Shown here in pieces: positions 1 through 40,093 of a stretch of 64,000 nucleotides of DNA. Position 1 is the first letter of the stretch; every line of letters begins with the position of its first letter. The DNA comes from Clostridia bacterium (lineage in GTDB: Bacteria > Bacillota > Clostridia > Christensenellales > Aristaeellaceae). The stretch spans positions 1 to 64,000 of the forward strand of contig JAFUFB010000030.1 of NCBI GenBank assembly GCA_017470145.1, in the 5' to 3' direction. The notes under the pieces were generated by a model. That model was given only the letters and a program-made list of their open reading frames with translations, had not been told where the DNA came from and did no database searches. The position numbers were made by a program, and so were the translations under genes.

Positions 1-139
1 GAAATTTCCGCCACAGGCGGTCGCGAAATTTTCTTCCGGTCGCCAACATAGTCGCAACTGCCCACTGGGCAGATTGCTCCTTGTTGGCTCTGTTAAAATT
101 TCGCGAAATTTCCGCCACAGGCGGTCGCGAAATTTTAAC
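1..139 (-). ncRNA. Structured RNA element downstream of the ABC permease operon, copy 1 (cut by window edge)
   Basis: Read on the minus strand, the element begins at the stop codon of the upstream permease gene. Domain 1 is a hairpin with a perfect 15-bp stem (92-106 with 125-139), capped by a second stem CCGCC/GGCGG with loop TGT and an AAATT bulge. Domain 2 has an outer stem GCCAACA/TGTTGGC (82-88 with 42-48), an internal loop AGGA opposite GACTA, and an inner stem GCAA-U-CTGCCC/GGGCAG-TTGC around loop AGT. A further copy of the domain 1 hairpin starts near 32 and runs off the window: bases 1-32 equal bases 105-136. The same architecture follows another permease operon at 39843. I do not recognise the family. 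It could be a processing or stability element, a terminator-like structure or a small RNA. Confidence 0.5.
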
Positions 140-1082
140 CCTTCAGCGCTCCCACCATTACGCCCTTCACGAAATACTTCTGCAGGAAGGGGTAGACGCA
201 CATAATGGGCACGGTGGAGACCACGATGACCGCCATTTTGATGGACTGTTCCGGCGGCTGAACGAAGTTGGGATCCATATTCTGCAGATCCCCCGCCGAA
301 GCGTTGGCCAGAATGATGATTTCCCGCAGCAGCACCTGCAGAGGCCATTTATCCCGAGCGCCGCTCATGTAGATCATAGCGCCGAAGTAGGCGTTCCAAT
401 GGCCTACGGCGTAGAACAGACCAAAGGTGGCCAGCACCGGCAAGCTCAGGGGCAGCACGATCTTCCACAGAATCCCAATATCGTTGCAGCCATCGATGGA
501 GGCGGATTCTTCCAATTCCTGGGGAATCCCCTGGAAGAAATTCTTCACGATCATCATGTTATAGGCGCTGATGGCGCCGGGCAGCAGCACGGACCAATAA
601 GTATCCTTCAGCTGGAGGATATTGGCGATGACGATGTAGCTGGGAATCATACCCCCGGAGAAAAACATGGAGAAGATGACCAGGTTCAGGAAGAAGTTTC
701 TCCCCCGCAGCCGCTGCTTGGACACGGCATAGGCCATGGTAACGGTGAAGAAGAGGTTAATCAGCGTCCCCACCACCGTGATGAACACGGAATTGCCAAA
801 AGCCATCAGAATTTTGTTGGAGGAGAAAATATACCGATAGGCGTCCAGCGTCACATCCCGCGGGATGATGAACATTGGCCGAGTGGCCAGCTCATACTCC
901 GTAGCGAAGGAGGCGCCGATGATGTAGATAAAGGGTAAAATGGTCGTAAAAGCGATCAGGGAGACGATCAGATAATTTACGATGTTAAACACCCGGCTGC
1001 CCACGGAGTCATTCTGACCCACCGGGCCGCTGGAGATCTTCATCTTTTTCCCATTCAAGGTTTCGACACGCGCTTCCGACAT
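135..1082 (-). CDS. Carbohydrate ABC transporter permease, LplC/YtcP type (MalG family)
   Basis: Inner-membrane permease subunit of a CUT1-type sugar ABC importer, 315 aa with about six hydrophobic segments. The conserved cytoplasmic EAA loop appears as EESASIDGCNDIGILWKIVL near residues 190-210. That loop docks the ATPase, here most likely a shared MsmX-like protein encoded elsewhere. The C-terminus ends in the usual QKYFVKGVMVGALKG pattern. An AAAGGAGG site sits 8 nt before the ATG. It lies 17 bp behind the LplB-type partner and forms a two-gene operon. No substrate-binding protein or sugar hydrolase is next to it inside the window, so the substrate cannot be guessed. The stop codon is inside the stem of the downstream RNA element. 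Confidence 0.93.
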   Translation of the reverse strand: MSEARVETLNGKKMKISSGPVGQNDSVGSRVFNIVNYLIVSLIAFTTILPFIYIIGASFATEYELATRPMFIIPRDVTLDAYRYIFSSNKILMAFGNSVFITVVGTLINLFFTVTMAYAVSKQRLRGRNFFLNLVIFSMFFSGGMIPSYIVIANILQLKDTYWSVLLPGAISAYNMMIVKNFFQGIPQELEESASIDGCNDIGILWKIVLPLSLPVLATFGLFYAVGHWNAYFGAMIYMSGARDKWPLQVLLREIIILANASAGDLQNMDPNFVQPPEQSIKMAVIVVSTVPIMCVYPFLQKYFVKGVMVGALKG

Positions 1083-1099
1083 CTTTTCCGCCTCCTTTC

Positions 1100-2053
1100 T
1101 CAGTACAGGCCCTGCTCGCCCAGGGCGTGGGCGATCTTATTGGAGCCCACCACCAGGGTGACGCTGACGATGGATTTCATCAGGCCGATGGCCGCGGCGT
1201 AGCTGTATTGCCCCTGCTGGATACCTTGCTGATACACAAAGACGTCCAGGGTCTGGGAAGCGGAACGGTTCAGGGAGTTGGCCATCAGAATCAGATGGTC
1301 ATATCCGGAATCCAGCACGGAGCCCATCCGCAGGATCAGCATCAGCACGATGGTGGAGCGAATGGCGGGCAGCGTGATATGCCACAGCCGCCGCAGCCGG
1401 CCCGCGCCGTCCACCATGGCGGCCTCGTACAGCTGGGTGTCCACATTGGTCAGGGCCGCCAGGAAAATAATGGTTCCCCATCCGGTTTCCTTCCAGATGG
1501 TCTGCCCGATGATCATCCACCGGAAGGCCGTGGGCGAGCCCAGATAATCAATAGGATGACCCAGGAGGCTGTTGGTCAGCTTGTAAACAATGCCCGAGGA
1601 GCCGAACATCACGAAGGTAATGGAAACTACGATAACGATGGAGATGAAATGCGGAACGTAAAGCAGTGTCTGCAGCAGCTTTTTATATCGCAGGGAAAGC
1701 ATCTCATTCAGCATCAGGGCCAGAATGATGGGCGCGGGGAAGTAGAATACGATGTTCATCAGGGATAGCACCAGCGTGTTGGACAGATACCGCGTCCAGG
1801 AGGGGAATTTGAAGAAATACTCAAACCATTTCCAGCCCACCCACTGGCTGCCAAAGACGCCGGAATAGGGCACATAGTTCTCAAAGGCAATAACGATGCC
1901 GAACATGGGCAAATACTTAAATACAATGAAATAAATCAAGCCCGGCAACAGCAGCAGGAAAAGCCATTTATCCCGCTTGATATCCCGGCCCAGCTTGGCC
2001 CAATACTCCTTGCCCGTGCCGTGCATCCGCTTACGCTCGGCTCTGGTGCTCAT
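1100..2053 (-). CDS. Carbohydrate ABC transporter permease, LplB type (MalF family)
   Basis: Second permease subunit of the same CUT1 importer, 317 aa from the ATG at 2051-2053. I chose this start because GGAGGG lies 6 nt upstream. An in-frame upstream ATG at 2137 has no ribosome site and falls in a hairpin-rich leader. The EAA loop is present as YEAAMVDGAGRLRRLWHITL, about 220 residues in. It is cotranscribed with the LplC-type gene downstream from a consensus promoter at 2156-2184. LplB/LplC pairs normally work with an LplA-type binding protein, and none is adjacent here, so it may lie beyond the left edge. Confidence 0.93.
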   Translation of the reverse strand: MSTRAERKRMHGTGKEYWAKLGRDIKRDKWLFLLLLPGLIYFIVFKYLPMFGIVIAFENYVPYSGVFGSQWVGWKWFEYFFKFPSWTRYLSNTLVLSLMNIVFYFPAPIILALMLNEMLSLRYKKLLQTLLYVPHFISIVIVVSITFVMFGSSGIVYKLTNSLLGHPIDYLGSPTAFRWMIIGQTIWKETGWGTIIFLAALTNVDTQLYEAAMVDGAGRLRRLWHITLPAIRSTIVLMLILRMGSVLDSGYDHLILMANSLNRSASQTLDVFVYQQGIQQGQYSYAAAIGLMKSIVSVTLVVGSNKIAHALGEQGLY

Positions 2054-2089
2054 CCGTATCCCTCCCTGTTTTTCTGTGGACAATCCTTT

Positions 2090-2133
2090 CTTTCTCTTTC
2101 TGGTACAGAAAGAGAAAGGGGGATCCCCCCTTT
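2090..2133 (-). other. Two consecutive hairpins in the 5' leader of the LplB/LplC operon
   Basis: A perfect 13-bp inverted repeat (2090-2102 with 2106-2118, 3-nt loop) abuts and partly overlaps a second stem of 8 bp (2115-2122 with 2126-2133). Both lie between the promoter and the first gene. Because they share bases 2115-2118 they cannot both be fully paired. No U-tract follows, so this is not a clear terminator. Its role is unknown. Confidence 0.5.
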
Positions 2134-2155
2134 GCATGTCTCAAATGGCGAGTTA

Positions 2156-2184
2156 ATTATACAATTGTTGCATGTACCTGTCAA
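2156..2184 (-). promoter_or_regulatory. Consensus sigma-A promoter of the LplB/LplC operon
   Basis: On the minus strand the -35 box TTGACA (2179-2184) and the -10 box TATAAT (2156-2161) are both perfect and 17 bp apart. The first gene starts about 100 bp downstream, leaving a structured leader. No operator repeat was seen around it. Confidence 0.85.
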
Positions 2185-2264
2185 TCATAATTCTGAAATA
2201 CGGCGAAAAAACATCCCTCCTTTCTCACCGTCGAAATAGAAAAAAACTATTGTGCTCTACCGTC

Positions 2265-2288
2265 AAAAAAAGAGCGCTTCCGCGCTCT
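2265..2288 (-). terminator. Rho-independent terminator after hemZ
   Basis: The stem AGAGCGC/GCGCTCT (2271-2277 with 2282-2288) has a 4-nt loop and, on the minus strand, is followed by a run of six to seven T. It separates the hemZ operon from the permease promoter. Confidence 0.85.
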
Positions 2289-2373
2289 GATAAAATGGAA
2301 TCAACATGAAAGTCGGACGTTTCCTCCATTGATGTTCAACTGCTCCGTATTGGAACCTATCTTCCGGGTACCC

Positions 2374-3843
2374 TCAGGTCAAAAACAGCTCCCGCTTTCG
2401 CTGGATCATCTCCTCCACCCGGGCTACATAGTTCTCGATATTGCTGACATTCGGCGCCCGGCCGATATGCCCCTCCTCCGGATAAATTCGCTTGGAGATG
2501 CCCCCAGCGCCTAAAGCCAGAATATGGGAGGTTTCCTCCATGATGTCCACATTGTACACGCATTCATGCCCTGGCAGGGCGTAGCCGGTGTTCTCCAGAT
2601 TCCCGGCCATGTACTTTTGCTTGTACAGATAATAGGGCCGCAGGCCCAATTGGCCGGCGGTATCCCGGCCCAGACGCACCATCTCCGCCGCGATTTCCGC
2701 CGCCGGCAGCTGGGCCGAGGGGGCCTCCGCTTCGCTGCGCTGCTTGAGGCGGACAGCGGTTTGCCGCTCCCCGAAGGGGGAGGACCGCTTGATGGCCAGG
2801 GTGTGCACCGTCAGGCTCTCCGGCCGCAGGCGCAAGGCCTCCTCCATGGTGTGGGTAAACTCCGGAATACCTTCCCCCGGGAGCCCAGCAATGACGTCCA
2901 TGTTGATATGCGGAATGCTCTCCTCCCGGGCCAAAGCATAGGCCTCCCGCACCTGCTGGGCGGTATGGGCCCGGCCAATGACCCGCAAGGTCTGGTCGTT
3001 CATGGTCTGGGGGTTGATGGAAATTCGTCCGACCCCCGCCTCCCGGATAGCCCGCAGCTTGCTCCGGGTAATGGTGTCCGGCCGCCCCGCCTCCACGGTG
3101 TATTCCATGGCCCCAGGAAAGGCCTCCATCATGCCCACCATCAGCTGTTCAAATTCCTTCTCCGGCAGGGCCGTAGGGGTGCCGCCCCCCACGTACACCG
3201 CCCGCAGCCGCCTGCCGCTTTCCCGCAGGATCTCCTGCCCTGCCCGCATTTCCCGGGCCAGCGCCGTCATGTAGGGGGCCACCAATTTGCCATTGCCAAT
3301 CTCCCCAGAGGAGAAGGAGCAGTAGGCGCACCGAGTCGTGCAGAATGGAATGCCGATATACACATCCATCCATTCATCCCCGGGGGCGGGCATGCTCCGC
3401 TGCACCCGGGCCACCTGGGCCAGCAACTCCACCTTTTCCCGGGTGACGTCGAAATCCGTCATCAGCCGCTGGACGGCCGCCTCCTCCGACAGCCCCTGAC
3501 CCAGGGCTTCCAGCATCAGATGGGTGGGGCGCACCCCCGTCAGGCTGCCCCAGGGGGGATGCACGCCCGTCCGCTGGCGATAAAAATCATACAGGGTCTG
3601 CTTGCACAACCGCCGGGCCGCCCGCTTCTGGTGCAGCTCCCGCAGGCGAGGGTCTTCGTCCAGAGGGATGGGGGCCTGACCTGTGGTTTGTGTATCGCCC
3701 TGGGAGAAGGTAATGATATACTCTCCGCCCATTTCCCGGGCCTCCAGGCGCAGATCCGGCGGCAATTCCTGTATGCCAAAAAGCCGGGCTGTGTTGATCA
3801 GCTCCGGCTGAATGGTGGATAGATAATCATCGATCAATGCCAT
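2374..3843 (-). CDS. hemZ: Radical SAM coproporphyrinogen III dehydrogenase-like protein HemZ
   Basis: 489-aa radical SAM protein of the HemN/HemZ group, whose best-known activity is oxygen-independent oxidation of coproporphyrinogen III to protoporphyrinogen IX. The 4Fe-4S/SAM motif CTTRCAYC has cysteines 168, 172 and 175, followed by the VGGGTPTAL segment. The long N-terminal region before the radical SAM core is typical of HemZ rather than HemN. It is the last gene of the ftsY-side cluster and is followed by a terminator. HemZ is routinely found next to rel in Clostridia. No other heme genes are in the window, so the true substrate in this organism is not certain. Confidence 0.9.
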   Translation of the reverse strand: MALIDDYLSTIQPELINTARLFGIQELPPDLRLEAREMGGEYIITFSQGDTQTTGQAPIPLDEDPRLRELHQKRAARRLCKQTLYDFYRQRTGVHPPWGSLTGVRPTHLMLEALGQGLSEEAAVQRLMTDFDVTREKVELLAQVARVQRSMPAPGDEWMDVYIGIPFCTTRCAYCSFSSGEIGNGKLVAPYMTALAREMRAGQEILRESGRRLRAVYVGGGTPTALPEKEFEQLMVGMMEAFPGAMEYTVEAGRPDTITRSKLRAIREAGVGRISINPQTMNDQTLRVIGRAHTAQQVREAYALAREESIPHINMDVIAGLPGEGIPEFTHTMEEALRLRPESLTVHTLAIKRSSPFGERQTAVRLKQRSEAEAPSAQLPAAEIAAEMVRLGRDTAGQLGLRPYYLYKQKYMAGNLENTGYALPGHECVYNVDIMEETSHILALGAGGISKRIYPEEGHIGRAPNVSNIENYVARVEEMIQRKRELFLT

Positions 3844-3942
3844 GTTCTTCTTCCTTCCGGCGGACTTCTCCGTCGGCCCCTTTGTGCCTCCAAGTGACCG
3901 TCTTGCTTCCCCCGCTCTGCGGGAGAACTTCCATCAGCATTC

Positions 3943-6150
3943 TTAGCCCGTCACCCGGTACACATCAATCACATCCGCCTTGTTGCGAATGGCCTGGATC
4001 ACCTTATCCATCTGTTCCCGGGAGGCCACGTCCAGGGTCAGCTTCACCGTGGAGATTCGGCTCTTATCGTCCGTCTGGACCTGAGCCGCCTTGATGGATA
4101 CATTCATTTCGCCGATGATGGAGGCGATTTCTCCCAGCATATTCACCCGGTCATAGACCAGAATCTTGATGGAAGCGTAGAAGGATCCGCCGCCCTCCGT
4201 GGCCCACTCCACAAGGATCCGCCGCTCCGGCTCCGCGCTGGCGGCGTTGGGGCATTCCGCCTTATGGATGGTGACCCCCCGGCCCCGGGTAATGTATCCT
4301 ACGATCTCGTCCCCCGGCACCGGGCTGCAGCAGCGGGCGAAGCGGATCGGGATGTCCAGATCCTCGTTTCCGGTCAGGACGATGCCATGGTTGGCCCGGC
4401 GCTGACTCAGCTGCTTTTCATCCACCTTGTCCGGCAATTCCTCCGGAATCTCCGGCAGGGCGGGAGCCTCCCGTCCCCGCTGCTCCTCCATCAGCCGGCT
4501 GACCACATATTGGGCCGCCATGCCGCCATAGCCCACGGCGCAGCAGATATCGTCAAACTCGTTGAAGCCATACTTCTTCAGCATGGATTCATAGTATTCC
4601 GGCTTGGTCAGCTCGTTCAGCTTCACCCCACGACGGGCGCACTCGTGCTCGATCATCTCCTTGCCCAGGGCCAGATTCTCCTGCCGCAGCTCCTTTTTCA
4701 GGTACTGCCGAATCTTGGCCTTGGCCTGGGGCGTATTGCAGATGCGAATCCAGTCTGAGGAGGGGCCCTTGCTGGTGGCGGAGGTCATGATCTCCACCCG
4801 ATCCCCCGTGGCCAACTCCGTTTCCAGGGGCACCAGCTTGCCATTCACCTTGGCGCCGACGCACTTATTGCCCACGGCGGAATGAATCCGATAAGCGAAG
4901 TCCAGGGGCGTGGAGCCCTTGGGCATGGAAATGACGTCACCCTTGGGGGTGAAGAGGAACACCTCGTCGTCGAAAAGATCCGTCTTCAGGGTGTCCATAA
5001 ATTCCTTGCTGTCCCGGGTGTCGCTGCTCCAGTCCAGAATCTGGCGGACCCAGGTCAGCTTATTGTCCAGGTCGTCCCCCTTGTCCCGGCCCTCCTTGTA
5101 GCGCCAGTGGGCCGCGATGCCGTATTCCGCGATTTTATGCATCTCCCAGGTGCGAATCTGCACCTCGAAGGGGAAGGGAATCTTTCGTCCGCCCATGACG
5201 GTGGTATGCAGGCTCTGATACATATTGGCCTTGGGTACGGAGATATAATCCTTAAACCGGCCCGGCACCTGGTTCCACAGGGTGTGCACAATGCCCAGCA
5301 CGGCATAGCAATCCGGCACCGTGTCCACGATGACCCGGATGGCGATCAGGTCATAAATCTGGTCGAAGGTCTTGTGCTGCAGCACCATCTTGCGATAGAT
5401 AGAGTAGAAATGCTTGGAGCGGCCATCGATGTCGAAATGAATCCCCTGCTCGTCCAGCTTATCGCTGAGCTCATCAATGACCAGGCGGATGCTCTCCTCC
5501 CGTTCAGCCCGCTTCATGCCCACCAGATGGACGATGTTGTTGTATCCGTCTGGATCCAGGTATTTCAGGCTCAGATCCTCCAGATCCTGCTTGATGGCAT
5601 AGACGCCCAGCCGATGGGCCAGGGGGGCATAGATATCCAGGGTTTCCCGGGCGATGGCCTTCTGCCGGTCCGGGGATTGAAAGCGCAGGGTGTACATATT
5701 GTGCAGCCGGTCCGCCAGCTTGATCAGCACTACCCGGATATCCCGGCTCATGGCCAGGATCATCTTTCGCACGCTCTCCGCCTGGGCCTCCTCCCGGTTG
5801 GCGAAATCCAGCTTGTTCAGCTTGGTGACACCATCCACCAGCTCCGCCACTTCCTCGCCGAAATCATGCCGCAGGGTATCCAGGGTGATGCCCTCGCAAT
5901 CCTCCACCGTGTCGTGCAACAGCCCGGCGGCGATGGTGGGCGGGTCGATCATCAGGTCGGTCAGAATGCTGGCCACAAAACAGGGATGCACAAAATAGGG
6001 CTCCCCGCTTTTGCGAACCTGGCCTTCATGGGCCTTCTCCGCAAAATACCAGGCCTTTTCCACCATTTTATAGCCTTCCCCCGCGTCATATTTCCGAATG
6101 CGGGCCAGCATCGTGCTCAAGGGCATGGCCTCATAGGACGCAAAGCTCAT
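3943..6150 (-). CDS. rel: Bifunctional (p)ppGpp synthetase/hydrolase (RelA/SpoT family)
   Basis: 735-aa long RSH enzyme that makes and degrades the stringent-response alarmone (p)ppGpp in the cytoplasm. The N-terminal HD hydrolase domain shows HEGQVRKSGEPYFVHP at 41-56 and GLLHDTVED at 77-84, with the His-Asp pair intact. The synthetase domain follows, with MYQSLHTTV near residue 320. Then come a TGS domain (FTPKGDVISMPKGSTPLDF) and a C-terminal ACT domain, the full-length arrangement of Gram-positive Rel. Both catalytic halves look intact. The start has GGGGAGG 7 nt upstream. It sits between recJ and hemZ, as in many Clostridia. Confidence 0.95.
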   Translation of the reverse strand: MSFASYEAMPLSTMLARIRKYDAGEGYKMVEKAWYFAEKAHEGQVRKSGEPYFVHPCFVASILTDLMIDPPTIAAGLLHDTVEDCEGITLDTLRHDFGEEVAELVDGVTKLNKLDFANREEAQAESVRKMILAMSRDIRVVLIKLADRLHNMYTLRFQSPDRQKAIARETLDIYAPLAHRLGVYAIKQDLEDLSLKYLDPDGYNNIVHLVGMKRAEREESIRLVIDELSDKLDEQGIHFDIDGRSKHFYSIYRKMVLQHKTFDQIYDLIAIRVIVDTVPDCYAVLGIVHTLWNQVPGRFKDYISVPKANMYQSLHTTVMGGRKIPFPFEVQIRTWEMHKIAEYGIAAHWRYKEGRDKGDDLDNKLTWVRQILDWSSDTRDSKEFMDTLKTDLFDDEVFLFTPKGDVISMPKGSTPLDFAYRIHSAVGNKCVGAKVNGKLVPLETELATGDRVEIMTSATSKGPSSDWIRICNTPQAKAKIRQYLKKELRQENLALGKEMIEHECARRGVKLNELTKPEYYESMLKKYGFNEFDDICCAVGYGGMAAQYVVSRLMEEQRGREAPALPEIPEELPDKVDEKQLSQRRANHGIVLTGNEDLDIPIRFARCCSPVPGDEIVGYITRGRGVTIHKAECPNAASAEPERRILVEWATEGGGSFYASIKILVYDRVNMLGEIASIIGEMNVSIKAAQVQTDDKSRISTVKLTLDVASREQMDKVIQAIRNKADVIDVYRVTG

Positions 6151-6184
6151 TTTGTCACCTCCCCTTTCCTTCCTCCAGTCAATT

Positions 6185-7840
6185 CTACCTCGCCGGCCGC
6201 AGGGTTTGGACCTGCAGCTGGGGGTTCACCCGGCCATTAAATTCGTTCCGGCTGGGGCGGAACAGCGCGTCCACCCGGGTCCATCCCTGGTCCGCTATCT
6301 CCCCCAGGCCAAAGCCGATGCCGCCCCGCAGGGCTTCCCCTTCCAGTAGGGTCAGCTTCAGATGGCTCTGATCCTTCCCTACTCGCCGGGCCTCCTGCAG
6401 GTCCGCCCCCCGGCAGAGGAACACCGGGGCTGGATTTCCGCAGCCCGTAGGCTCCAGCTCCGCCAGGGCCTCGATGGTCTCCAGTGTTACCTGGGAAAGC
6501 TCCAGCTCGCTGTCATATTCCCAGACCCGCTGGAAGCACTCCGCTTCGCAGCTTTCCCGAACCACCTGATTCAGCCGTCGGCGAAACTCCGGGATCTTCT
6601 CCTCCGCGATGGTCAGCCCCGCCGCCTGCTCATGGCCACCGAAGCGGATCAGCAAATCCGCACATCCGCTCAGGGCTTCGAAAATATTTACCCCGGGGAT
6701 GGATCGGCAGCTGCCCACCGCCTGGCCCTCCTTTCGGCTCAGCACCACCGTGGGCAGATAATACTTCTCGCACAGCTTGCCCGCCACCAGGCCGATCAGC
6801 CCCGCGTTCCACTCCTCGCCGGAGAGCACCAGGGCCCGATCCGCACCCAGATCCGCCTGATCTGACAGAAGGTTCGTCGCCTCCTGCAGGATGCGCCGCT
6901 CCGTCTCCTGCCGCTGCCGGTTATTCTCCTCCAGGCAGGCAGCGATCTCCTTTGCCTTCTCCGGATTTCCCGTGGTCAGCAGCGTTACGCCCCGGCTGGC
7001 GTCCCCCAGGCGGCCCGCCGCATTTATGCGAGGAGCCAGGCGGAAGGCGATGTCATCGGAGCAGATGGGGGCCTGCACCCCCGCGTTCTCCATCAGGGCC
7101 CGCAGCCCCGGTCGAGGCGTCCGGGCCATGCGCAGCATCCCTTCTCGCACGATGACCCGGTTTTCATCCACCAGGGGCACGATGTCCGCCACCGTGGCCA
7201 GGGCAGCGATCTCGATTCGTCTTTCCACCCCAGCCAGCCCGAACAAGGCCTGGCAGATTTTCAAGGCTACCCCCGCGCCGCATAAGCGTCGGAAGGGATA
7301 ATCCCCCAGCAGGGGGTCCATTACCGCGTCCGCCGGCGGCAGGGTGGGGGGAATCTCGTGATGATCCGTCACGATGACCTTCATGCCCAGCTCCTTGGCC
7401 AGCCGCACCTCCGCCACGTTGGAAATGCCGCAGTCCACGGTAATCAGCAGCGAGATGTTCAGCTCCGCCATCTCTCGAATGGCCTTCTCATTCAGCCCAT
7501 ATCCATCCTGATGGCGGGAGGGGATGCGGAAGGAAACCACCGCCCCCGCTTCCTTCAGAGTTTCCAGCAGAATGGTCACAGCGCTGACCCCGTCCACATC
7601 GTAGTCCCCATAGACCATGATGCGATCCTTCCGGGCGATGGCCTCCCGGATCAGGGCCAGGGTCTTATCCATATCCTGCATTCGCAGGGGATCGTGCAGG
7701 TCGGAGAGCTGGGGATGCAGGAACTTCTCCGCCTTCTCCGGCGTGTTGATCCCCCGGGCGCAGAGCAATTCCCTCTCCCACTCCGGCAGCCCCGGCAGCT
7801 CCGCCAGGGGCCCGGCATATCTCTTTCTGAATTCGGCCAT
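6185..7840 (-). CDS. recJ: Single-stranded-DNA-specific exonuclease RecJ
   Basis: 551-aa DHH-superfamily 5'-3' single-strand DNA exonuclease used in recombination and repair. The metal-binding motifs are in order: YGDYDVDGVSA at 78-88, TVDCGISN, VTDHHEIPP (the DHH motif), and RFGGHEQAAG of the DHHA1 domain near residue 415. The C-terminal OB-fold is present. Length fits the shorter Gram-positive RecJ form. GAGG lies 8 nt before the ATG. It is about 105 bp after secF, with a weak hairpin between, and 34 bp before rel. Confidence 0.95.
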   Translation of the reverse strand: MAEFRKRYAGPLAELPGLPEWERELLCARGINTPEKAEKFLHPQLSDLHDPLRMQDMDKTLALIREAIARKDRIMVYGDYDVDGVSAVTILLETLKEAGAVVSFRIPSRHQDGYGLNEKAIREMAELNISLLITVDCGISNVAEVRLAKELGMKVIVTDHHEIPPTLPPADAVMDPLLGDYPFRRLCGAGVALKICQALFGLAGVERRIEIAALATVADIVPLVDENRVIVREGMLRMARTPRPGLRALMENAGVQAPICSDDIAFRLAPRINAAGRLGDASRGVTLLTTGNPEKAKEIAACLEENNRQRQETERRILQEATNLLSDQADLGADRALVLSGEEWNAGLIGLVAGKLCEKYYLPTVVLSRKEGQAVGSCRSIPGVNIFEALSGCADLLIRFGGHEQAAGLTIAEEKIPEFRRRLNQVVRESCEAECFQRVWEYDSELELSQVTLETIEALAELEPTGCGNPAPVFLCRGADLQEARRVGKDQSHLKLTLLEGEALRGGIGFGLGEIADQGWTRVDALFRPSRNEFNGRVNPQLQVQTLRPAR

Positions 7841-7902
7841 AGGTTATTCCTCTATCATGGTGTGAAGGGATGTTTCACTCCCGCACGCTAAGAATAAAGG
7901 CA

Positions 7903-7929
7903 GGGGAGGCCGCGCTCCGCAGCCTCCCC
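7903..7929 (-). terminator. Weak terminator or attenuator between secF and recJ
   Basis: On the minus strand the stem GGGGAGGC/GCCTCCCC closes an 11-nt loop and is followed by an imperfect T-rich stretch. The U-tract is poor, so partial read-through into recJ is more likely than full termination. Confidence 0.45.
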
Positions 7930-7945
7930 CGCTCCCAAAGAATTC

Positions 7946-10152: not shown

Positions 10153-10190
10153 GACAATCGCATCCTCCTTCGTATAAACGCAATATGAAG

Positions 10191-10219
10191 ATTATATTCC
10201 TCCATGGCTTTTTCGTCAA
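10191..10219 (-). promoter_or_regulatory. Sigma-A promoter of the secD operon
   Basis: On the minus strand, TTGACG (10214-10219) is followed after 17 bp by TATAAT (10191-10196). It lies between ftsY and secD, so the sec operon can be transcribed independently of ftsY. Confidence 0.75.
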
Positions 10220-10225
10220 GAAAAA

Positions 10226-11152: not shown

Positions 11153-11185
11153 CTCCCGTTTCTATGCGGAATTATTCCGGGGGCC

Positions 11186-11214
11186 ATCATACCACAAAAA
11201 AACGGCCCTTTCAA
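11186..11214 (-). promoter_or_regulatory. Sigma-A promoter of ftsY
   Basis: On the minus strand, TTGAAA (11209-11214) is followed after 17 bp by TATGAT (11186-11191), about 35 bp before the ftsY start. Confidence 0.75.
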
Positions 11215-11223
11215 TCTTTCTCC

Positions 11224-28858: not shown

Positions 28859-28958
28859 GCGGTTTTTCAAATTCTTTCGAATTTCCCACCAGTAGCACGT
28901 TGATTGGTGTAATCATGAATCGCATCCCCACTTTTACACCACTTTTAAAACAAATTAC

Positions 28959-29657: not shown

Positions 29658-29664
29658 ATAAAAA

Positions 29665-29704
29665 TACCTCCTTTCAGAGCATACACATGCTGCATAAGGA
29701 GGTA
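29665..29704 (-). promoter_or_regulatory. Ribosome-site-sequestering stem of the folT leader
   Basis: On the minus strand, TACCTCCTT (29696-29704) is exactly complementary to AAGGAGGTA (29665-29673), which contains the folT ribosome site. This 9-bp stem lies between the riboswitch aptamer and the gene and would block translation. It is the likely expression platform. Confidence 0.7.
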
Positions 29705-29730
29705 AATGAAATTCCTCATTATGTGGAATC

Positions 29731-29830
29731 AGCGGGTGCGGGCCTGCAACCGCGGCTTCCTCGCCTTCGTCCCCCGATCAACTCCCCGTTCCGGAGGCAC
29801 TTAACGAAGCAGGCCCTACTCTGACGCTCC
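29731..29830 (-). promoter_or_regulatory. Tetrahydrofolate (THF) riboswitch aptamer
   Basis: On the minus strand, the leader of folT contains the conserved THF aptamer blocks in order: AGAGTAGG, then CGTTAAGTGCCTCCGGAACG, GGGGAGTTG, GACGAAGG and CCGCGGTTGCAGGC, ending at CACCCGCT. Family knowledge places such aptamers before folT in Clostridia. Transcription from the promoter at 29833 would start right at the first base of the aptamer. Confidence 0.88.
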
Positions 29831-29832
29831 AC

Positions 29833-29861
29833 ATTATAGGCGAAAACCCTCAGGATCGCAA
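29833..29861 (-). promoter_or_regulatory. Promoter of the folT transcript
   Basis: On the minus strand, TTGCGA (29856-29861) and the perfect TATAAT (29833-29838) are 17 bp apart. Confidence 0.75.
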
Positions 29862-29878
29862 GGAGAAAATTACGTTTC

Positions 29879-32125: not shown

Positions 32126-32131
32126 CCTTTC

Positions 32132-33502: not shown

Positions 33503-33545
33503 CCCTCCTTAGCGCAGGATGCGTTCCGCCCATCCTGTATTCCAA

Positions 33546-33607
33546 ATTATGATTGAAATTGCTTTCCCTGTCTTTTCGTAATCCGATCATTTTTTTCACA
33601 AATCCGA
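33546..33607 (-). promoter_or_regulatory. Operator-promoter of the MATE-GH3 operon (two TCGGAT half-sites, 21-bp period)
   Basis: On the minus strand, TCGGAT half-sites at 33602-33607 and 33581-33586 are 21 bp apart start to start. After 29 bp comes the -10 box CATAAT (33546-33551). No -35 box is seen. The same layout occurs at 33624, 35968 and 42371 before other genes of the region. Two direct half-sites two helical turns apart is the arrangement bound by AraC-type regulators. Confidence 0.75.
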
Positions 33608-33623
33608 CGAGCTCATAAAGATG

Positions 33624-33686
33624 TCGGATTTCTGTCATTCCTGGTCGGATCAGGTCAAGAAAAGAACAGCCTTTCTTTGCTATGAT
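33624..33686 (+). promoter_or_regulatory. Operator-promoter of the esterase-like gene (two TCGGAT half-sites)
   Basis: TCGGAT at 33624-33629 and at 33645-33650 are 21 bp apart. The -10 box TATGAT (33681-33686) follows after 30 bp, with no -35 box at the expected place (AGAAAA there). It is arranged back to back with the MATE-GH3 operator, the nearest half-sites being 16 bp apart. Confidence 0.75.
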
Positions 33687-33717
33687 ACAGTTGAATCGAA
33701 TTTGAGGAGGTTGCACC

Positions 33718-35829
33718 ATGGCAAAAACCATTTATGATCCCCAATCAGATCCCCGTTTCCAGCATCCCGTGATTGATCAGGACGAATGGAAGGAAAGGTA
33801 TTTGCCGGACGGTTCCACGATTCCCTTCCGTTATCTGCACGGCTATTTTGAAGGAACGGATGTGAAATTTGCTTTCTGTTTTCCTCCAAAGGATAAATAT
33901 GAAAATCGTTTCCATCAGTATCTTTCCCCCTTCCCCGGCCCGGACGAGGAGATTGCCTCCCTGGGGCATACGGGGCTGGAGGATCGGATTGGCTTCGCCC
34001 TGCACTGCGGCGCTTACTTCATCGAAACCAACATGGGATCCCATTCCCAATTTGGCGGTCAGCGGGATGATCATTTGACCTGGCAATCCTCCGCGGCCGC
34101 GGCCGAATATTCCCGGGAGAAGGCCATGGAAATTTATGAGACCGACCAGCGCCCCTATGGCTATGTGTACGGTGGCAGCGGCGGCGGATACAAATCCATG
34201 GCCTGCATCGAAAACACCCGGGCCTGGGATGGGGCAGCGCCCTATGTCATCGGTTCGCCCGTTTCCCTTCCGAATACCATTACCATGCACGTTCAGGGCC
34301 AGCGGGTGCTGCGCAATGCCTTCCCCAAGATTCTGGACGCTCTGGATGCCGGCGGCTCCGGCGACCCGTACAAGGAGCTGACCAAGGATGAAGCGGATAT
34401 GCTGCGGGAATTGACCCGAATGGGTTTCCCGCCACTGGCCTGGTATCTGGAGGCCAAGGGCGTAAGAGACCCCGGGTCCTTGCCTGTTATCCTGCCCGGC
34501 GTCAAGCGGATGGATCCCGGCTATTTCACGGATTTCTGGACCAAGCCGGGCTATGCCGGCTCCGATCCGGAAAGCTCCTCCTCCAAGGATCATATCGTGT
34601 TCCATACCCGGGTCAAATCCGTACATCTACCGGAAAAGGCGACGGAGCGCAAAGCGGAGGACGGCCTCAACGGCGTGGACGACGCCTGGAAAAAACAGCT
34701 GGCCGACGGCAACGGAGCCTATCTGGAGCTGGAGGAGCTGCCCCAGGGCGACAATCTGTACCTGGAAGGCCTGTCCATGATCTTTGAAAGCGGGGAAGCC
34801 AAGGGGGCGAACCTGCTCATGGGCAAGATGATGCGCTATTCCGATCGGGCTGGCGGCATCGTGACCATTGGCTCCGCCTACGGCACCAGCGATGTGGGAG
34901 AAACGCTGGCCAAGGCGCAGCCCGGCGACGAAATCCTGCTGGATAATTCAGATTATATTGCGGCCCAGAGCTACTATCGTCATCAGGTGCCGGAGGACCT
35001 CTCCTTCCACGCCTGGGATCAATTCCGGGATGAAAAGGGAAACCCGCTTACGGCCCAACGGGCGCCCTTCCCAGTGCCCTTCACTGGCGTAGGCGTGCGG
35101 CAGGATGGCGACATTCAGGGCAAGGTCATCAACATCCAGGCCCTGATGGACGAAAGCACCTGTCCCTGGTGCGCCGACTGGTGGCGAAACAAGATTATCG
35201 CGACGAAGGGGTCCGACGCTGATCACCGCACCTATTTCATGGAGCGGTGCATGCATGGGGATGTAAGCGCCCTGGGAAACTACATGGTGGTGAATTATGT
35301 AGGCGCCCTACGCCAGGCTTTGATCGATCTTTCCGCCTGGGTGGAAAAGGGGATTGAGCCCCTGAACCGCACCACCTATACCCTGGGAGAGGATGGCCAG
35401 ATCCATCCCGAGCAGGATGTGAGCAAGCGTTTTGGCCTCCAGGCCATCCCCACCCTGAAGGCCAATGGGGAAAAGTGTGCTCATGTCAAGGTGGGCGAAT
35501 GCGTCCGCTTCACGGTGGATGTGGAGGTGCCCATCAGTGCCGGCGTGGTAACAGAGGTGCTGTTTGCCTCCCGTGAAAAACAGGTGGATGATCCGAATGG
35601 CACCTATGCCTCCCAGATGTCACGGAGTGACAGCATTTGGGAAAGCCAGCTGAGCTTTGAGCGGGGCACCCGGGGAGAAGTCCACACCGCCCACGCCGAA
35701 GCCATGGCTTCCTATGATCAGCCGGGGACCTACTTCGCCACCGTCCGCGTCGCCAGCAACCGGAGCGAGGAGGCGGACCCCTTCACCCAGGTGCTGAACC
35801 TGGACCGGGCCCGGATTATTGTATCCTAA
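33718..35829 (+). CDS. Large alpha/beta-hydrolase-fold protein, putative esterase
   Basis: 703 aa, no signal peptide. I do not recognise a named family. The nucleophile-elbow motif GYVYGGSGGGYKSMACIEN has Ser154, and the downstream AWDGAAPYVIGSP resembles the tannase/feruloyl esterase group, where the same segment follows the catalytic serine. Candidate acid and base residues lie near CADWW and DHRTYFMERCMHGD in the 480-520 region. The last 130 residues (from about 570) look like a beta-sandwich domain. GAGGAGG precedes the ATG. Its promoter carries the shared 21-bp operator, so it is part of the sugar regulon and may remove acyl or phenolic esters from plant polysaccharide fragments. Confidence 0.6.
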   Translation: MAKTIYDPQSDPRFQHPVIDQDEWKERYLPDGSTIPFRYLHGYFEGTDVKFAFCFPPKDKYENRFHQYLSPFPGPDEEIASLGHTGLEDRIGFALHCGAYFIETNMGSHSQFGGQRDDHLTWQSSAAAAEYSREKAMEIYETDQRPYGYVYGGSGGGYKSMACIENTRAWDGAAPYVIGSPVSLPNTITMHVQGQRVLRNAFPKILDALDAGGSGDPYKELTKDEADMLRELTRMGFPPLAWYLEAKGVRDPGSLPVILPGVKRMDPGYFTDFWTKPGYAGSDPESSSSKDHIVFHTRVKSVHLPEKATERKAEDGLNGVDDAWKKQLADGNGAYLELEELPQGDNLYLEGLSMIFESGEAKGANLLMGKMMRYSDRAGGIVTIGSAYGTSDVGETLAKAQPGDEILLDNSDYIAAQSYYRHQVPEDLSFHAWDQFRDEKGNPLTAQRAPFPVPFTGVGVRQDGDIQGKVINIQALMDESTCPWCADWWRNKIIATKGSDADHRTYFMERCMHGDVSALGNYMVVNYVGALRQALIDLSAWVEKGIEPLNRTTYTLGEDGQIHPEQDVSKRFGLQAIPTLKANGEKCAHVKVGECVRFTVDVEVPISAGVVTEVLFASREKQVDDPNGTYASQMSRSDSIWESQLSFERGTRGEVHTAHAEAMASYDQPGTYFATVRVASNRSEEADPFTQVLNLDRARIIVS

Positions 35830-35847
35830 AGTAGATTTGATAAAAAC

Positions 35848-35866
35848 TCCCCCGCGGAGCGGGGAG
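35848..35866. repeat. CTCCCC/GGGGAG hairpin (copy 2 of the GC palindrome)
   Basis: It lies 18 bp after the esterase-like gene's stop, with loop CGCGGAG. It is not followed by a T-run. It is the start of a degenerate tandem unit that repeats from about 35909. Confidence 0.5.
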
Positions 35867-35911
35867 CGAAACCCGATAGATGATCGGATTTCCTACTAAA
35901 TGCTGATGAAA

Positions 35912-35936
35912 GCTCCCCCCGCGGAGCGGGGGGAGC
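35912..35936. repeat. GCTCCCCCC/GGGGGGAGC hairpin (copy 3 of the GC palindrome)
   Basis: A 9-bp perfect stem with a 7-nt loop GCGGAGC, followed by A-rich sequence rather than T. On the minus strand it is preceded by T-rich sequence. It belongs to the second tandem unit. Confidence 0.5.
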
Positions 35937-35967
35937 AACAAAACCTTTTCGAATCATCAAGAGATGA

Positions 35968-36029
35968 TCGGATTTCCTATATTTTTGATCGGAATCCGGA
36001 CAGTATTTAATTGTGAAAAACGGTAAAAT
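35968..36029 (+). promoter_or_regulatory. Operator-promoter of the sugar ABC operon
   Basis: Half-sites TCGGAT (35968-35973) and TCGGAA (35989-35994) are 21 bp apart. The -10 box TAAAAT (36024-36029) follows after 29 bp. No -35 box is seen. An upstream partial copy (half-site at about 35885, second half-site lost) marks a tandem duplication of this control region. Confidence 0.72.
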
Positions 36030-36095
36030 AATCATCGTAAAGCCCCAGGAGGCTTCTTGAGATCGTCAGGTGAACGGGAAAGGAGACGGAAATTC

Positions 36096-37931
36096 ATGTC
36101 GATTCGGACCAAATGGATTGCGCTGATGACAGCTGTGGTGGTGATGCTGGTGGGCATGCAGCTTTACTATGGCAACATCGGCAATCCCGGCGCCGGCAGC
36201 GCCAGCCCGGAAACCACCTTCGACTGGTGGATCTACTCCGGTACTTCCTCAGAATATTACGATAATTACGCCCAGAACCCCGCTATTCAGTACACGCTTC
36301 AGCACGGCTGGGGTCCGGAGGAGAAGGCCATTGCGCTAAACTTCCTTCAGCCCCCGCCCGGCAGCGAGGATAATAACTACACCACCATGATCGCCTCCGG
36401 AGACCTGCCGGATATCATCGACGCCGTAATCAGTGAAGCCCCCGGCGTCATGGTGGAAAAGGGCTATGCCATCGAACTGACGGAGTATGTAGAACAATAT
36501 ATGCCCAATTACAAGGCCCTGGTGCACTCCAACACCGAGTACCTGTATAACTGCGTCAGCACCGATGAGGATGGCACCGAGCATTACTACCAGCTGAGTC
36601 AGTTGCTGGATGGCTACGATCCCCTGTTCCAGGGCTTCCAATACCGCAGGGATTGGGTAGCCAAATACGGCTCCAACCCCTCCACAGGCGCCTCCTTCAC
36701 CGGCGGCTTTACCAATCCGGAGGATGTGGACAGCTGGGAGGATGATGTCATATTCCCCAGCTGGTATGACGAAAGCAAAAAAGCCAAAGCTCTGGAAATC
36801 GACCCTGAGTGGGATGGAACAGAGCCCTTCTTTGTCACCGACTGGGAATGGATGTTCGACATTTTCCTGAAGGCCCAGGCGGACCTGGGAATTGAAGGGA
36901 AATACGCCATCAGCCTGTACTATCCCGGCTACACCTGGTCCGGCGGCTTGCTCAGCTGCTTCGGCGGCGGCGTCAATATGTTCTATCAGGACGCGGAGAA
37001 TAAGGTGCACTTTGGCGGCAATGAAACCCCCTTCAAAACCTACCTGGAATGCATGCATCACTGGTATGAGGTAGGTTGGCTGGATCATGACTTTAACCAG
37101 CGCACCGCCGACGCCTTCTATCAGATCGACTCTACCTCCGTTCGCCAGGGCCTGATCGGCATGTGGAATGGTGGTCAGAGCGAACTGGGCGGCCGCCTGG
37201 ACATGCACGATGGCGGCTGTACCGAAGGAATCTTCGTAGCCGGCGCTGCCTATCCCATCAACGACAGCTACGGCCCGGAGGAGTGCCAGTTCGTGGTGCC
37301 CAACTGCGTGATGGGCTCCAGCCTCACCAAGGGTGGCATCATGATTACGCCCAAGGCGGCGGAAAAGGATCTGGCGACGCTGTGCAGCTATCTGGATTAC
37401 TTCTACACGGAGGAAGGCGGGCTGATCAAGACCCTGGGTCTCAGCGCGGAGCAAGCCGCGGAATTCAGCAGCAATACCTTCTATGCCGATCATGGCCTGG
37501 CAGACGGCGCTTACACCGTGGTGGAAGATGGAACCTATGTGAAGAGCAGCGTGCTGGCCAACGACAGCGGCCAATTGAACACTGCCGTGGGCTTCAACAA
37601 GTGTCCGGGACTCCAGATGGTCGCCACCGTGGATCTGGGTTACGCGGCCTCTTACTCCACCTCCTTGGCTCGATGGACAAAATATCCCAACACCGGCTTC
37701 TTCCAGGGCAGCCGAACCACCAACGAAATGAGCCAGTCCGACGCCAAGGCTTGTGAGGATATTCACAGCAAGGTGCTGGAATACATGGGCAAAAACTGCG
37801 CCAACTTTATCACCGGAAAATCCAACTTTGATAAGGATTGGGACAAGTGGTGCACTGTGCTGAACAAATACAAGGTAGATCAGGCCATCGAGATTTACCA
37901 GTATTATGTCGATCATTATCCCTTCCGCTGA
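36096..37931 (+). CDS. Extracellular sugar-binding protein of an ABC importer (LplA/YtcQ type)
   Basis: 611 aa from the ATG at 36096, with AAAGGAG 10 nt upstream. An in-frame ATG at 36057 lacks a ribosome site. A hydrophobic N-terminus (about 7-26) acts as signal peptide or anchor; no lipobox cysteine is visible. The length of about 600 aa, the SGDLPDIIDAVISE-type segment near 105-120 and the aromatic-rich ligand regions are typical of LplA/YtcQ binding proteins for oligosaccharides. It leads the operon with two permeases behind it. The operon promoter carries the 21-bp operator. Confidence 0.88.
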   Translation: MSIRTKWIALMTAVVVMLVGMQLYYGNIGNPGAGSASPETTFDWWIYSGTSSEYYDNYAQNPAIQYTLQHGWGPEEKAIALNFLQPPPGSEDNNYTTMIASGDLPDIIDAVISEAPGVMVEKGYAIELTEYVEQYMPNYKALVHSNTEYLYNCVSTDEDGTEHYYQLSQLLDGYDPLFQGFQYRRDWVAKYGSNPSTGASFTGGFTNPEDVDSWEDDVIFPSWYDESKKAKALEIDPEWDGTEPFFVTDWEWMFDIFLKAQADLGIEGKYAISLYYPGYTWSGGLLSCFGGGVNMFYQDAENKVHFGGNETPFKTYLECMHHWYEVGWLDHDFNQRTADAFYQIDSTSVRQGLIGMWNGGQSELGGRLDMHDGGCTEGIFVAGAAYPINDSYGPEECQFVVPNCVMGSSLTKGGIMITPKAAEKDLATLCSYLDYFYTEEGGLIKTLGLSAEQAAEFSSNTFYADHGLADGAYTVVEDGTYVKSSVLANDSGQLNTAVGFNKCPGLQMVATVDLGYAASYSTSLARWTKYPNTGFFQGSRTTNEMSQSDAKACEDIHSKVLEYMGKNCANFITGKSNFDKDWDKWCTVLNKYKVDQAIEIYQYYVDHYPFR

Positions 37932-37962
37932 TGCGGGCTGATTCAAGAGGAGGTGTAATTTC

Positions 37963-38916
37963 ATGGCAAAGAATTCTGCCGCTCTGACCGGCTCCGCACG
38001 ACGCAGCTGGAAAACCGAGCTGAAACGCGACTGGGTTGTTTATCTTCTTTTCCTTCCCATCATCGTGTATGAAGTTCTGATGCATTACCTGCCCATGTTC
38101 GGCATCGTCATGGCTTTTGAGGACTACAATGTGGTGGATGGGTACTTCCACAGCCCCTGGGTGGGAATGAAGCACTTCGTGGATCTCTTCTCCGGGGAAG
38201 ATTTCCTGCAGGCGCTGCGAAATACCGTGGTCATTGGCTTGCTGAAATGTACCGTCGGATTCGTGGCTCCCATCATCTTCGCCCTGATGCTGAGCTTGAT
38301 CAACAGCAAAAAATTCAAGCGGATTGCCCAAACCATGTCCTACATGCCGAATTTCGTGGCCGCGGTCATCGTTTGCTCCCTGTTTACCCAATTCCTGGCC
38401 AAGGATGGACCCTTGACCTTGCTGCTGGCCCGGCTGTTAGGCGCAGAGAACCAGAACTGGTTGGCCAATGACAAGCCCCCCGTGTTCTGGATTATCTACA
38501 CCATGATGGGCATCTGGCAGGGGGTTGGCTGGGGCTCCATCATGTATGTGGCGGCCATCTCCCAGGTCAGCGGCGATCTGCACGAGGCGGCGGCCATCGA
38601 TGGCGCCACCCGGTTGCAGCGGCTGTTCAAGATCACCCTGCCCAACATCCTGCCCATGGTCATGATGATGTTCGTTATCGGCATCGGCACCGCCTTCGTG
38701 GCCGGGTACGATAACATCCTGCTGCTGTATATGCCCAGCACCTACAATGTATCCGATACCGTATATACCTACACCTATCGCCAGGCCTTCGGCGGCGGTA
38801 CGTCCAACTACTCCTTGTCCGCGGCCTCCGGTCTGTTCCAGTCCGTGGTCAGCACCATCTTGCTGGTCGGGTCCAATTCCCTTTCCCGCAAGGTCGGCGG
38901 CAGCAGCCTGTTTTAA
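37963..38916 (+). CDS. Carbohydrate ABC transporter permease, LplB type
   Basis: 317-aa permease with about six membrane segments and the EAA loop HEAAAIDGATRLQRLFKITL near 205-225. AGGAGG lies 8 nt before the ATG. It follows the binding protein by 31 bp and precedes the second permease by 18 bp. The first 25 residues are positively charged and cytoplasmic. Confidence 0.93.
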   Translation: MAKNSAALTGSARRSWKTELKRDWVVYLLFLPIIVYEVLMHYLPMFGIVMAFEDYNVVDGYFHSPWVGMKHFVDLFSGEDFLQALRNTVVIGLLKCTVGFVAPIIFALMLSLINSKKFKRIAQTMSYMPNFVAAVIVCSLFTQFLAKDGPLTLLLARLLGAENQNWLANDKPPVFWIIYTMMGIWQGVGWGSIMYVAAISQVSGDLHEAAAIDGATRLQRLFKITLPNILPMVMMMFVIGIGTAFVAGYDNILLLYMPSTYNVSDTVYTYTYRQAFGGGTSNYSLSAASGLFQSVVSTILLVGSNSLSRKVGGSSLF

Positions 38917-38934
38917 GAGAGGAGGGAAATCGAC

Positions 38935-39846
38935 ATGGCAAAGAAGCAACGGAAACAACAAGAGTGGGAAAACAACATGGTGGAAACCAAAACCATCGCG
39001 GACCGCGTCGTGGATATCATCCTGTATTTGGTCATCGCCCTGGTGGCTCTCTGCAGCGTTATCCCCATGTGGCATGTACTGATGTCCTCCTTCTCGGATG
39101 GCAAATCCCTCCTGGCCCATGTAGGCCTGGTGCTGTGGCCCATCGGGAAATTTACCGTGGAAGGCTATCGGATGATCTTCCAGAACGCCAGCATCGTCAG
39201 CGGCTACATCAACACAATCGTATACACCGTGGCCTTTACCACCATCGGCTTCCTGCTCTCCGCGGTAACGGGCTATGCCCTGAGCCGGGATACGAAAATG
39301 AAGAAGCCCGTGACCTTGGCTTTGATGATCACCATGCTCTTTGGCGGCGGCATGGTGCCTTCCTACATGGTGCTTCGCGCCCTGGGCTGGGTCGGCACGG
39401 TATGGGCCCTGGTGATTCCGGGATGCACCAACTCCATGTACTGCATCATGATGATGAACGCCTTTAATTCCATCCCCAAGGAAATGTACGAAGCCAGCCA
39501 CATCGACGGCGCAGGGCATATTTCCACCCTGTTTGAAATCACCCTGCCTCAGGCCATGAACATGGGCGCCGTGATCATCCTGAATCTGAGCATCGGCCAG
39601 TGGAACTCCTGGCTGCAGGCCAGCATCTACGTACCGAACAAAAAGGCCCTGTGGCCCCTGCAGCTGGTCATTCGGCAGATCACCAGCGAAAACGCCAACT
39701 TCCTGAATTCCTCTAATCCGGATTACAGCCGCTATCTGATCCAGTTCGCGGTCATCATCGCGGCCATCGCCCCCATCATCATCGCCTTCCCCTTCTTCCA
39801 GGATAAGATGGAAAAGGGTGTGATTCAAGGTGGGGTTAAGGGGTGA
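38935..39846 (+). CDS. Carbohydrate ABC transporter permease, LplC/YtcP type
   Basis: 303-aa partner permease. The EAA loop YEASHIDGAGHISTLFEITL is near 181-200, and the end is the family-typical DKMEKGVIQGGVKG. GAGGAGGG precedes the ATG. It is the last gene of the transporter operon. The stop codon is inside the first stem of a structured RNA element that also follows the other LplC-type gene at 135. No ATPase gene is in the operon, as usual when a shared MsmX-type ATPase is used. Confidence 0.93.
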   Translation: MAKKQRKQQEWENNMVETKTIADRVVDIILYLVIALVALCSVIPMWHVLMSSFSDGKSLLAHVGLVLWPIGKFTVEGYRMIFQNASIVSGYINTIVYTVAFTTIGFLLSAVTGYALSRDTKMKKPVTLALMITMLFGGGMVPSYMVLRALGWVGTVWALVIPGCTNSMYCIMMMNAFNSIPKEMYEASHIDGAGHISTLFEITLPQAMNMGAVIILNLSIGQWNSWLQASIYVPNKKALWPLQLVIRQITSENANFLNSSNPDYSRYLIQFAVIIAAIAPIIIAFPFFQDKMEKGVIQGGVKG

Positions 39847-40093
39847 GAAATCCGTGACCGCCAGTGGCGGAAATTACACGGATTTCTCACAGAGCCAATA
39901 AGGAGCAATCTCCACAGTGCGTCCGCTGTTACCCGCGCTGAAGCGCGGACAGCTTGCGCATGGGAGTCGTTACCCAAATCAAAGATTTGGACGACTCCAC
40001 ATGTGGAGTTGCGACTATATTGGCGACCGGGCGAAATGTTTTTCGACCGCCCCTCCCCTATGCCTGCGCGTTCCGCGCAGGCTATTTTTTTCT
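39843..40093 (+). ncRNA. Structured RNA element downstream of the ABC permease operon, copy 2, with terminator
   Basis: It starts at the permease stop codon. Domain 1 has a 14-bp perfect stem (39843-39856 with 39877-39890), then CCGCC/GGCGG with loop AGT and an AAATTA bulge. Domain 2 has the outer stem GCCAATA/TATTGGC (39894-39900 with 40018-40024), the internal loop AGGA/GACTA, and the inner stem GCAA-U-CTCCACA/TGTGGAG-TTGC. Its loop is expanded by two hairpins (39925-39953 and 39963-39998), each with a 3-nt UAC bulge between GU and CC. Compared with copy 1 at 1-139, stems differ but stay paired, and loops and linker (ACAGAGCCAA, AGGAGCAAT, TTGCGACTA, GGCGACCGG) are conserved. A terminator at 40062 ends it. 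Confidence 0.55.
40062..40093 (+). terminator. Rho-independent terminator at the end of the ABC operon and RNA element
   Basis: A perfect 9-bp stem GCCTGCGCG/CGCGCAGGC with loop TTC is followed by TATTTTTTTC. Confidence 0.9.

Follow-up and report, generated by a model that had tools for sequence, protein, structure and literature searches.

A dispersed double-hairpin repeat of gut Clostridia, a subset of which was probably recruited at permease stop codons of sugar-transporter operons

The window analyzed here, a stretch of 64,000 nt of Clostridia bacterium DNA (positions 1 to 64,000 of contig JAFUFB010000030.1, assembly GCA_017470145.1), includes two copies of D1-D2, an element of about 105 nt without coding capacity that is formed by two hairpins, D1 and D2. 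D1-D2 is a mobile or gene-converted repeat, as seen from empty sites in relatives, nesting with other repeats and four element-free orthologous operons. The family has many copies per genome that are present or absent in close relatives, and its copies also nest and form tandem arrays. One subfamily, type A, has a constant position: within operons, in sense orientation, with the upstream stop codon at element positions 4–7, nearly always that of a permease gene. Judged from the sequences, D1-D2 is probably a mobile double hairpin whose type A subset has been recruited as an intercistronic mRNA element in sugar-transporter operons. In the following, G000 is the window's own genome, in which base 1 of the window is base 1 of contig C22; other G numbers refer to other genomes and L numbers to loci.

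An earlier note on this DNA had placed two structured copies at 1–139 and 39843–40093. Both copies are real, while their extents required correction. Copy 1 lies on the minus strand at 141–36 (D1 139–92, D2 90–40, tail GACCGG 41–36; model match of 117.2 bits, E 8.8e-24) and is followed by the first part of the D1 of a second tandem copy (1–37, minus), which is truncated where the contig ends (base 1). On the plus strand copy 2 extends over 39841–40030 (D1 39843–39890, D2 39892–40026, tail GACCGG 40025–40030), leaving the stretch 40031–40093 outside the element. Its model match (39841–39941, E 3.5e-8) is weakened by an insert in D2: the tip of D2 contains another repeat, 'D3-D4' (stem-TCC-hairpin-GGGTAA-stem, twice), at 39918–40001 on the minus strand, with relatives 92 and 89% identical over 84 nt. 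Relatives of 'D3-D4' in the same genome are found at C28:15205 and C18:256, and it has matches also in other genomes of the genus. The nesting is reversed in G036, with D1-D2 inside 'D3-D4' (L163, L166, L170 and L172).

The two copies adjoin the second permease genes of two different sugar ABC operons, at 135–1082 (minus; C-terminus KGVMVGALKG) and 38935–39846 (plus; C-terminus KGVIQGGVKG), both with a match to PF00528. The copies had been thought to begin at the permease stop codon. The stop does fall within the 5' arm of D1 in both, and the actual start is the Gly codon preceding it. The sequence motifs were found as described before, including CCGCC-WGT-GGCGG, the AAATT bulge, the AGGA/GACTA loop, the single-U bulge and the exchanged stems. 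In copy 2 the folding z-score was -7.6 for D1 and -8.3 for D2; in copy 1 it was -5.9 for D2 and -7.6 over the stretch of 139 nt, and none of 200 shuffles reached any of these values.

In the family as a whole D1 consists of a 15-bp stem that bears the AAATT bulge (5 nt) and is tipped with CCGCC-NGT-GGCGG; in D2 a stem of 7–9 bp is followed by the AGGA/GACTA internal loop, and then by an inner stem with the loop AGT. Two subfamilies have this same architecture, type A with the tail GACCGG and type B with the tail TGCGG; by alignment reading, tandem G-A steps at the base and middle of D2 in one correspond to Watson-Crick pairs in the other. Alignment A1, from which the covariance model R1 was built, included 39 copies (20 from the window's own genome and 19 from 17 genus mates). 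Altogether 91.5% of its 1519 cells were paired, against 33–47% in slid controls, a comparison that favours the structure since this was derived from the same 39 sequences. Double changes were present at 29 of the 39 pairs, 298 cells were changed on both sides, and the covariation score was reached by none of 500 shuffles, which upholds the proposal of a covarying two-domain structure. The asymmetric features (AAATT bulge, AGGA/GACTA loop and single-base bulge) are conserved across the copies. The D1 stems, earlier taken to be of unrelated sequence, have a common degenerate pattern in the type A copies. Two type A copies (L016 8326–8455 and L017 2043–2199) carry a further GC-rich module (GCGCGCGGTGCGTGAGGCGCTTGCGCC) inserted at the tip of D2.

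We could not match D1-D2 to any described family. An Rfam scan of the window gave only a THF riboswitch and tRNA, both elsewhere and neither at the element, and a permissive scan of 39700–40250 gave six matches, all far under the gathering scores. Copy 1 had no match at E 0.01 in plasmid and phage collections. In the literature, as represented by titles and abstract openings, no description of the D1-D2 repeat was found; a survey of candidate structured RNAs from human microbiomes (PMC8040213) could contain the motif.

The window's own genome had 30 model matches (E 3.5e-8 or better) at 23 sites after tandem merging, and three near-complete genomes had 35, 38 and 41 matches at E 0.01. BLAST at E 0.01 found matches in 36 of the 41 genomes of the genus, the window's own included. 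The search of related genomes proposed earlier produced further, covarying copies: the covariance model matched 35 of 150 genomes of the family, representing 16 of its 50 genera, and 3 of 151 genomes in an order-wide sample, all three of the window's own genus; both searches used stricter filters by which weak matches are lost. A pattern scan of species genomes gave at least 80 stretches. Among those listed, 77 records were named Clostridia, Clostridiales or Christensenellaceae, many of them from ruminants, and the three others, from unrelated bacteria, gave no model match (0/3). As far as sampled, the repeat is confined to one family of gut Clostridia.

The mobility of the element is best seen at locus L158, a 9-kb stretch of G036 with two elements. 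The second is missing at the same point in G023 and G001, which are 97 and 90% identical to L158 in the stretch between the elements; the 204-nt composite holding the first is exactly missing in G023 and missing in G001 with more diverged flanks. Altogether 14 loci of G036 were queried and 11 aligned, L155, L168 and L174 being left out as they had one flank only or were not in both relatives. At L166, L170 and L172 the host repeat is present without the element in G023, and for L172 also in G001. What G001 lacks at L163 and L175 is only a composite, which for L163 is absent from G023 as well. Such empty sites bear out the earlier guess that D1-D2 could be a mobile hairpin cassette. The operon of window copy 2 is present with the same permease end and no element in G009, G035, G021 and G027; a short stretch at this site in G009 could be a pre-insertion site or a remnant. 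At ten type A loci of the window's own genome the similarity of the elements averaged 0.80, compared to 0.59 in the preceding 600 coding bases, and was higher in 45 of 45 pairs; the elements are therefore not mere passengers of operon duplication.

By reading, D1-D2 is also found within, or adjacent to, the AGT loop of a third repeated hairpin, of the GTGACCCAGTGGGTCA type (L158 6712–6816, L187 and L121), and near position 6800 of L171 a GTGACCCAGTGGGTCA-type hairpin instead follows within a broken D2. Two possible rules of insertion were rejected. Duplication of a D1 arm to the right of the element was found at 12 of 120 sites (score at least 8; control 2.6%), mostly partial tandem copies. 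Insertion into hairpin loops had a weak signal only: a junction stem of at least 6 was present at 14 of 144 sites, its frequency in re-paired flanks being 5.1% (p 0.02); a stem of at least 7 was seen at 3 of 144 sites (p 0.20), and a previous test with a different control gave no signal (1/144 vs 1.5%).

The genomic context of 162 matches was determined with a hexamer gene caller trained on the retrieved loci, three weak overlapping or antisense matches of the original 165 having been dropped. Type B (n = 123) occurs in every arrangement: 48 copies between sense genes, 25 between antisense genes, 20 between convergent and 12 between divergent genes, and 18 with one neighbour missing. The type A copies (n = 18) lie between sense genes in all 17 cases in which both neighbours were called, so that the fixed orientation looked for in a cis-regulatory element is present in type A and not in type B. 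The remaining 21 matches, cut or with inserts, fell outside both types; two of them, the L009 copy at 5867 and copy 2 of the window, were assigned to type A by hand. The upstream stop codon is overlapped by 13 of the 18 type A copies, the other five being later tandem copies, and altogether 13 type A and 18 type B matches begin within the last 20 nt of a gene.

At 22 hand-picked type A sites the stop codon was every time at element positions 4–6 or 5–7, and at 21 of them the upstream protein ends in KG, the terminus of this permease type; these sites include truncated or variant D2s (L029, L112), and L030 and L130 are identical and may represent one genome. The link with permease genes suggested before holds only within type A. 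In the window's own genome, 12 of 13 type A sites are behind a permease (PF00528), 11 of them within 150 nt of the domain end and one by the protein end (p 2e-16, on the assumption of about 2200 genes, a number that was not counted). Downstream, 15 of 20 genes at type A sites were read as solute-binding proteins by signal peptide and length; the other five comprise four enzymes, so named by sequence appearance only, and the sensor kinase that follows copy 2 of the window.

At L116, L122, L135, L138, L156, L169, L174 and L186 a type B copy closely follows an intact tRNA gene (Pro, Val, Met or Arg) and has a duplicate 3' fragment of a tRNA on its downstream side, and some of the tRNA-adjoining copies look as if placed inside a degenerate tRNA arm. 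At L097 the duplicate fragment is present and the intact tRNA was not found.

Between different species, type A is kept in place at orthologous operons (permeases more than 60% identical) in at least three cases, mostly with compensated changes. Window copy 1 differs from its counterpart in G032 (permease 76% identical) by 9 compensated pair changes and 1 other, the copy at L009 from that of G018 (96%) by 7 and 5, and the copy of G019 from that of JAFUDS (92%) by 5 and 1; the stop codon is the same within each pair. At L012 and L112 the permeases are identical over 280 residues, yet the elements differ by 9 compensated and 2 other changes. The tandem arrays behind these identical permeases (L012 2413–2622 and L112 from 7714) are of different make-up, indicating fast array turnover, and as the first copy of L112 resembles the second of L012, tandem copies seem to have been swapped or lost.

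According to the reading proposed here, the type A copies of the mobile double hairpin would have been recruited to serve between the cistrons of an mRNA. With its two stable hairpins the element would terminate the permease message or protect it, and the next gene, usually that of a solute-binding protein, would be expressed at a level different from the permease. Type A on the stop codon of a sugar-transporter gene may in this way tune the expression of the gene that follows. Should type A indeed fix how much permease is made relative to binding protein, a single mobile hairpin would have been recruited to this task about a dozen times in one genome, each time in another operon. With dozens of copies per genome and both orthologous and empty sites, the family forms a large natural set for studying how mobile palindromes become regulatory RNA.

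Several observations weigh against this reading. Only 11–12 of the 41 adjacent permease pairs in G000 bear the element (11 by the 150-nt rule). Pfam backs only five of the ten downstream solute-binding calls tested (DUF3502, SBP_bac_1 or both), NCBIfam gave one sub-threshold match for the other five of these ten, and the gene downstream of window copy 2 is a kinase. The G018 copy is partly decayed, with five uncompensated pair changes, and some type A copies therefore decay. As for mobility, the relatives lack a stretch larger than the element at 6 of the 11 aligned loci (L157, L159, L160, L171, L173 and L178), and L175 is kept in G023, judged by spacing. Each of the four element-only sites differs by two or three bases next to its right junction, and the three host-repeat sites have one common target and one altered junction. 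Because of the altered right junctions and the host repeat common to the three sites, conversion between host repeats is possible, and these three sites may represent gene conversion. The differences in presence between relatives may reflect gain or loss of copies. Finally, the stem changes show no excess of G-U of the sort that RNA selection should produce: in three overlapping alignments G-U and A-C cells numbered 5 vs 8, 22 vs 17 and 22 vs 18, counted from pairs at least 85% Watson-Crick; A1 and A3 have copies in common, so that the three alignments are not independent; nor are the cells.

The scarcity of G-U pairs speaks for the most serious competitor of the recruitment reading, which we regard as a real though clearly less probable possibility: that D1-D2 is a purely selfish or neutral palindromic repeat in which template switching in the DNA keeps the stems perfect by copying one arm onto the other, and the position at permease ends reflects a target preference for gene ends, with no function in the mRNA. 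Selection on stems as RNA only should tolerate G-U above A-C. In the element G-U is no commoner than A-C and makes up 0.8% of the cells in A2, compared to 4.2% in 17 tRNAs of the same loci. The 17 tRNAs, all distinct, form a small control of paralogues that are themselves under selection for pairing, and G-U against A-C numbers there only 12 vs 5. Covariation alone is therefore no proof of RNA selection, and the earlier argument from compensated stems to such selection was not established, G-U being as rare as A-C and most copies occurring in either orientation. According to PMC8794818, template switching during DNA replication can form and mend a hairpin in a single step, and compensatory changes can arise from it. 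Also the matches of both types that begin in the last 20 nt of a gene agree with a target preference. The family is thus a warning case: covariation this strong is usually taken as proof of a selected RNA, and the rarity of G-U leaves room for a DNA process.

Against a purely neutral repeat stand, first, the AAATT bulge, the AGGA/GACTA loop and the single-base bulge: copying of arms alone should erase conserved bulges and the internal loop, and therefore some selection on the shape of the element likely remains. Second, type A is kept at orthologous operons. Third, the ratio of one-sided to double changes in the element (4:260 in A1 and 17:525 in A2, likewise counted from pairs at least 85% Watson-Crick) is only modestly under that of the tRNA control (9:108), in which double changes dominate too. 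We tentatively consider also a further model, in which D1-D2 copies would be self-nesting mobile hairpin modules without a dedicated transposase: template switching at hairpins would spawn copies and rewrite stems in single steps, which would give near-perfect covariation without RNA selection, and some copies would then be captured at gene ends of sugar-transporter operons as expression-setting mRNA elements.

That selection acts on D1-D2 as a structured RNA across the whole family, be it a small RNA, an attenuator or an element like a riboswitch, appears improbable. The covariation, the conserved loops, the sense orientation of type A and its retention in place would all be expected of such an RNA, but type B in all arrangements, the presence and absence between close relatives and the low G-U would not.

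Still less probable is a miniature element moved by an IS607-type serine transposase recombining at GG. IS607 inserts at GG with no target duplication (PMC6188088). Of 112 type B copies of D1-D2 nearly all start with GG at the left end (G at 109 and 110), and GGG occurs in the empty sites of the host repeat. The empty site of L158, however, has no GG in either G023 or G001, the right-junction bases differ at the four element-only sites as described above, and the right-end GG of the type B set was imposed by the end-finding rule itself.

The least credible candidate, a REP/BIME repeat mobilised by a RAYT (Y1) transposase, has in its favour the dispersed palindromes, many of them downstream of genes, and Y1_Tnp matches in six other genomes of the genus, but membership in this system is unsupported: no D1-D2 was found within about 1.2 kb of any of the 15 RAYT-like genes of these six genus mates (chosen by size and Y1_Tnp score), and at all 15 loci another, GGGAC-type palindrome was read on at least one side. 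The Y1_Tnp search of G000 gave no match. Of the genomes searched 48 matched, and G312 and G274, rich in D1-D2 (26 and 22 model matches), are not among these 48; the 82 genomes without a match were unlisted, so that the membership of these two in the sample is not visible. The RAYT-like genes (L230–L243 and L245) have their own palindromes, varying between loci by reading. The only model match is a type B element about 215 nt from an IS200-type transposase gene of 155 aa (L244 874–1549, G271), a single case and possibly chance.

In its general features D1-D2 resembles REP, BIME and REPIN sequences, which according to PMC3733652 are intergenic palindromes, numerous within a genome, frequently located behind genes and also arranged in composite arrays; it fits the REP type as multi-copy intergenic palindromes with presence and absence between relatives. 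REPs are given there as 20–40 bp, tagged GTAG or CGTC. D1-D2, in contrast, measures about 105 nt and combines two unlike hairpins whose order is constant, the stems being free in sequence and the bulges fixed. The likeness to miniature inverted-repeat transposable elements (MITEs) and ERIC/BOX-type intergenic repeat units is that of small, non-autonomous, dispersed repeats, from which D1-D2 differs, by reading, in having no clear target duplication at the sites read and no terminal inverted repeat spanning the element. Intercistronic stem-loops in ABC-transporter operons (e.g. malE-malF) are stable hairpins between genes needed at different levels; D1-D2, unlike these, is upstream of the binding-protein gene, over the permease stop, and belongs to a mobile family. 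D2 further resembles the attC sites of integrons in having an outer stem, an unpaired spacer, an inner stem with a bulged base and a variable, insert-tolerant tip. The attC crossover is an AAC/GTT triplet, and since this is not conserved in D2, where the outer-stem pairs vary among AU, CG, GC and UA, identity with attC was rejected.

Of the features adjoining the elements, a terminator-like hairpin with a U run at 40062–40092 (plus, by sequence reading) is separate from copy 2, and by reading four relatives have such a hairpin and U run at this position without the element. The gene downstream of copy 2, at 40166–41593 (plus), is sensor-kinase-like and not a solute-binding protein gene, with weak histidine-kinase matches all under the NCBIfam cut-offs. 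The THF riboswitch of the window (RF01831, 82.1 bits), an ordinary known element, is located at 29728–29825 on the minus strand.

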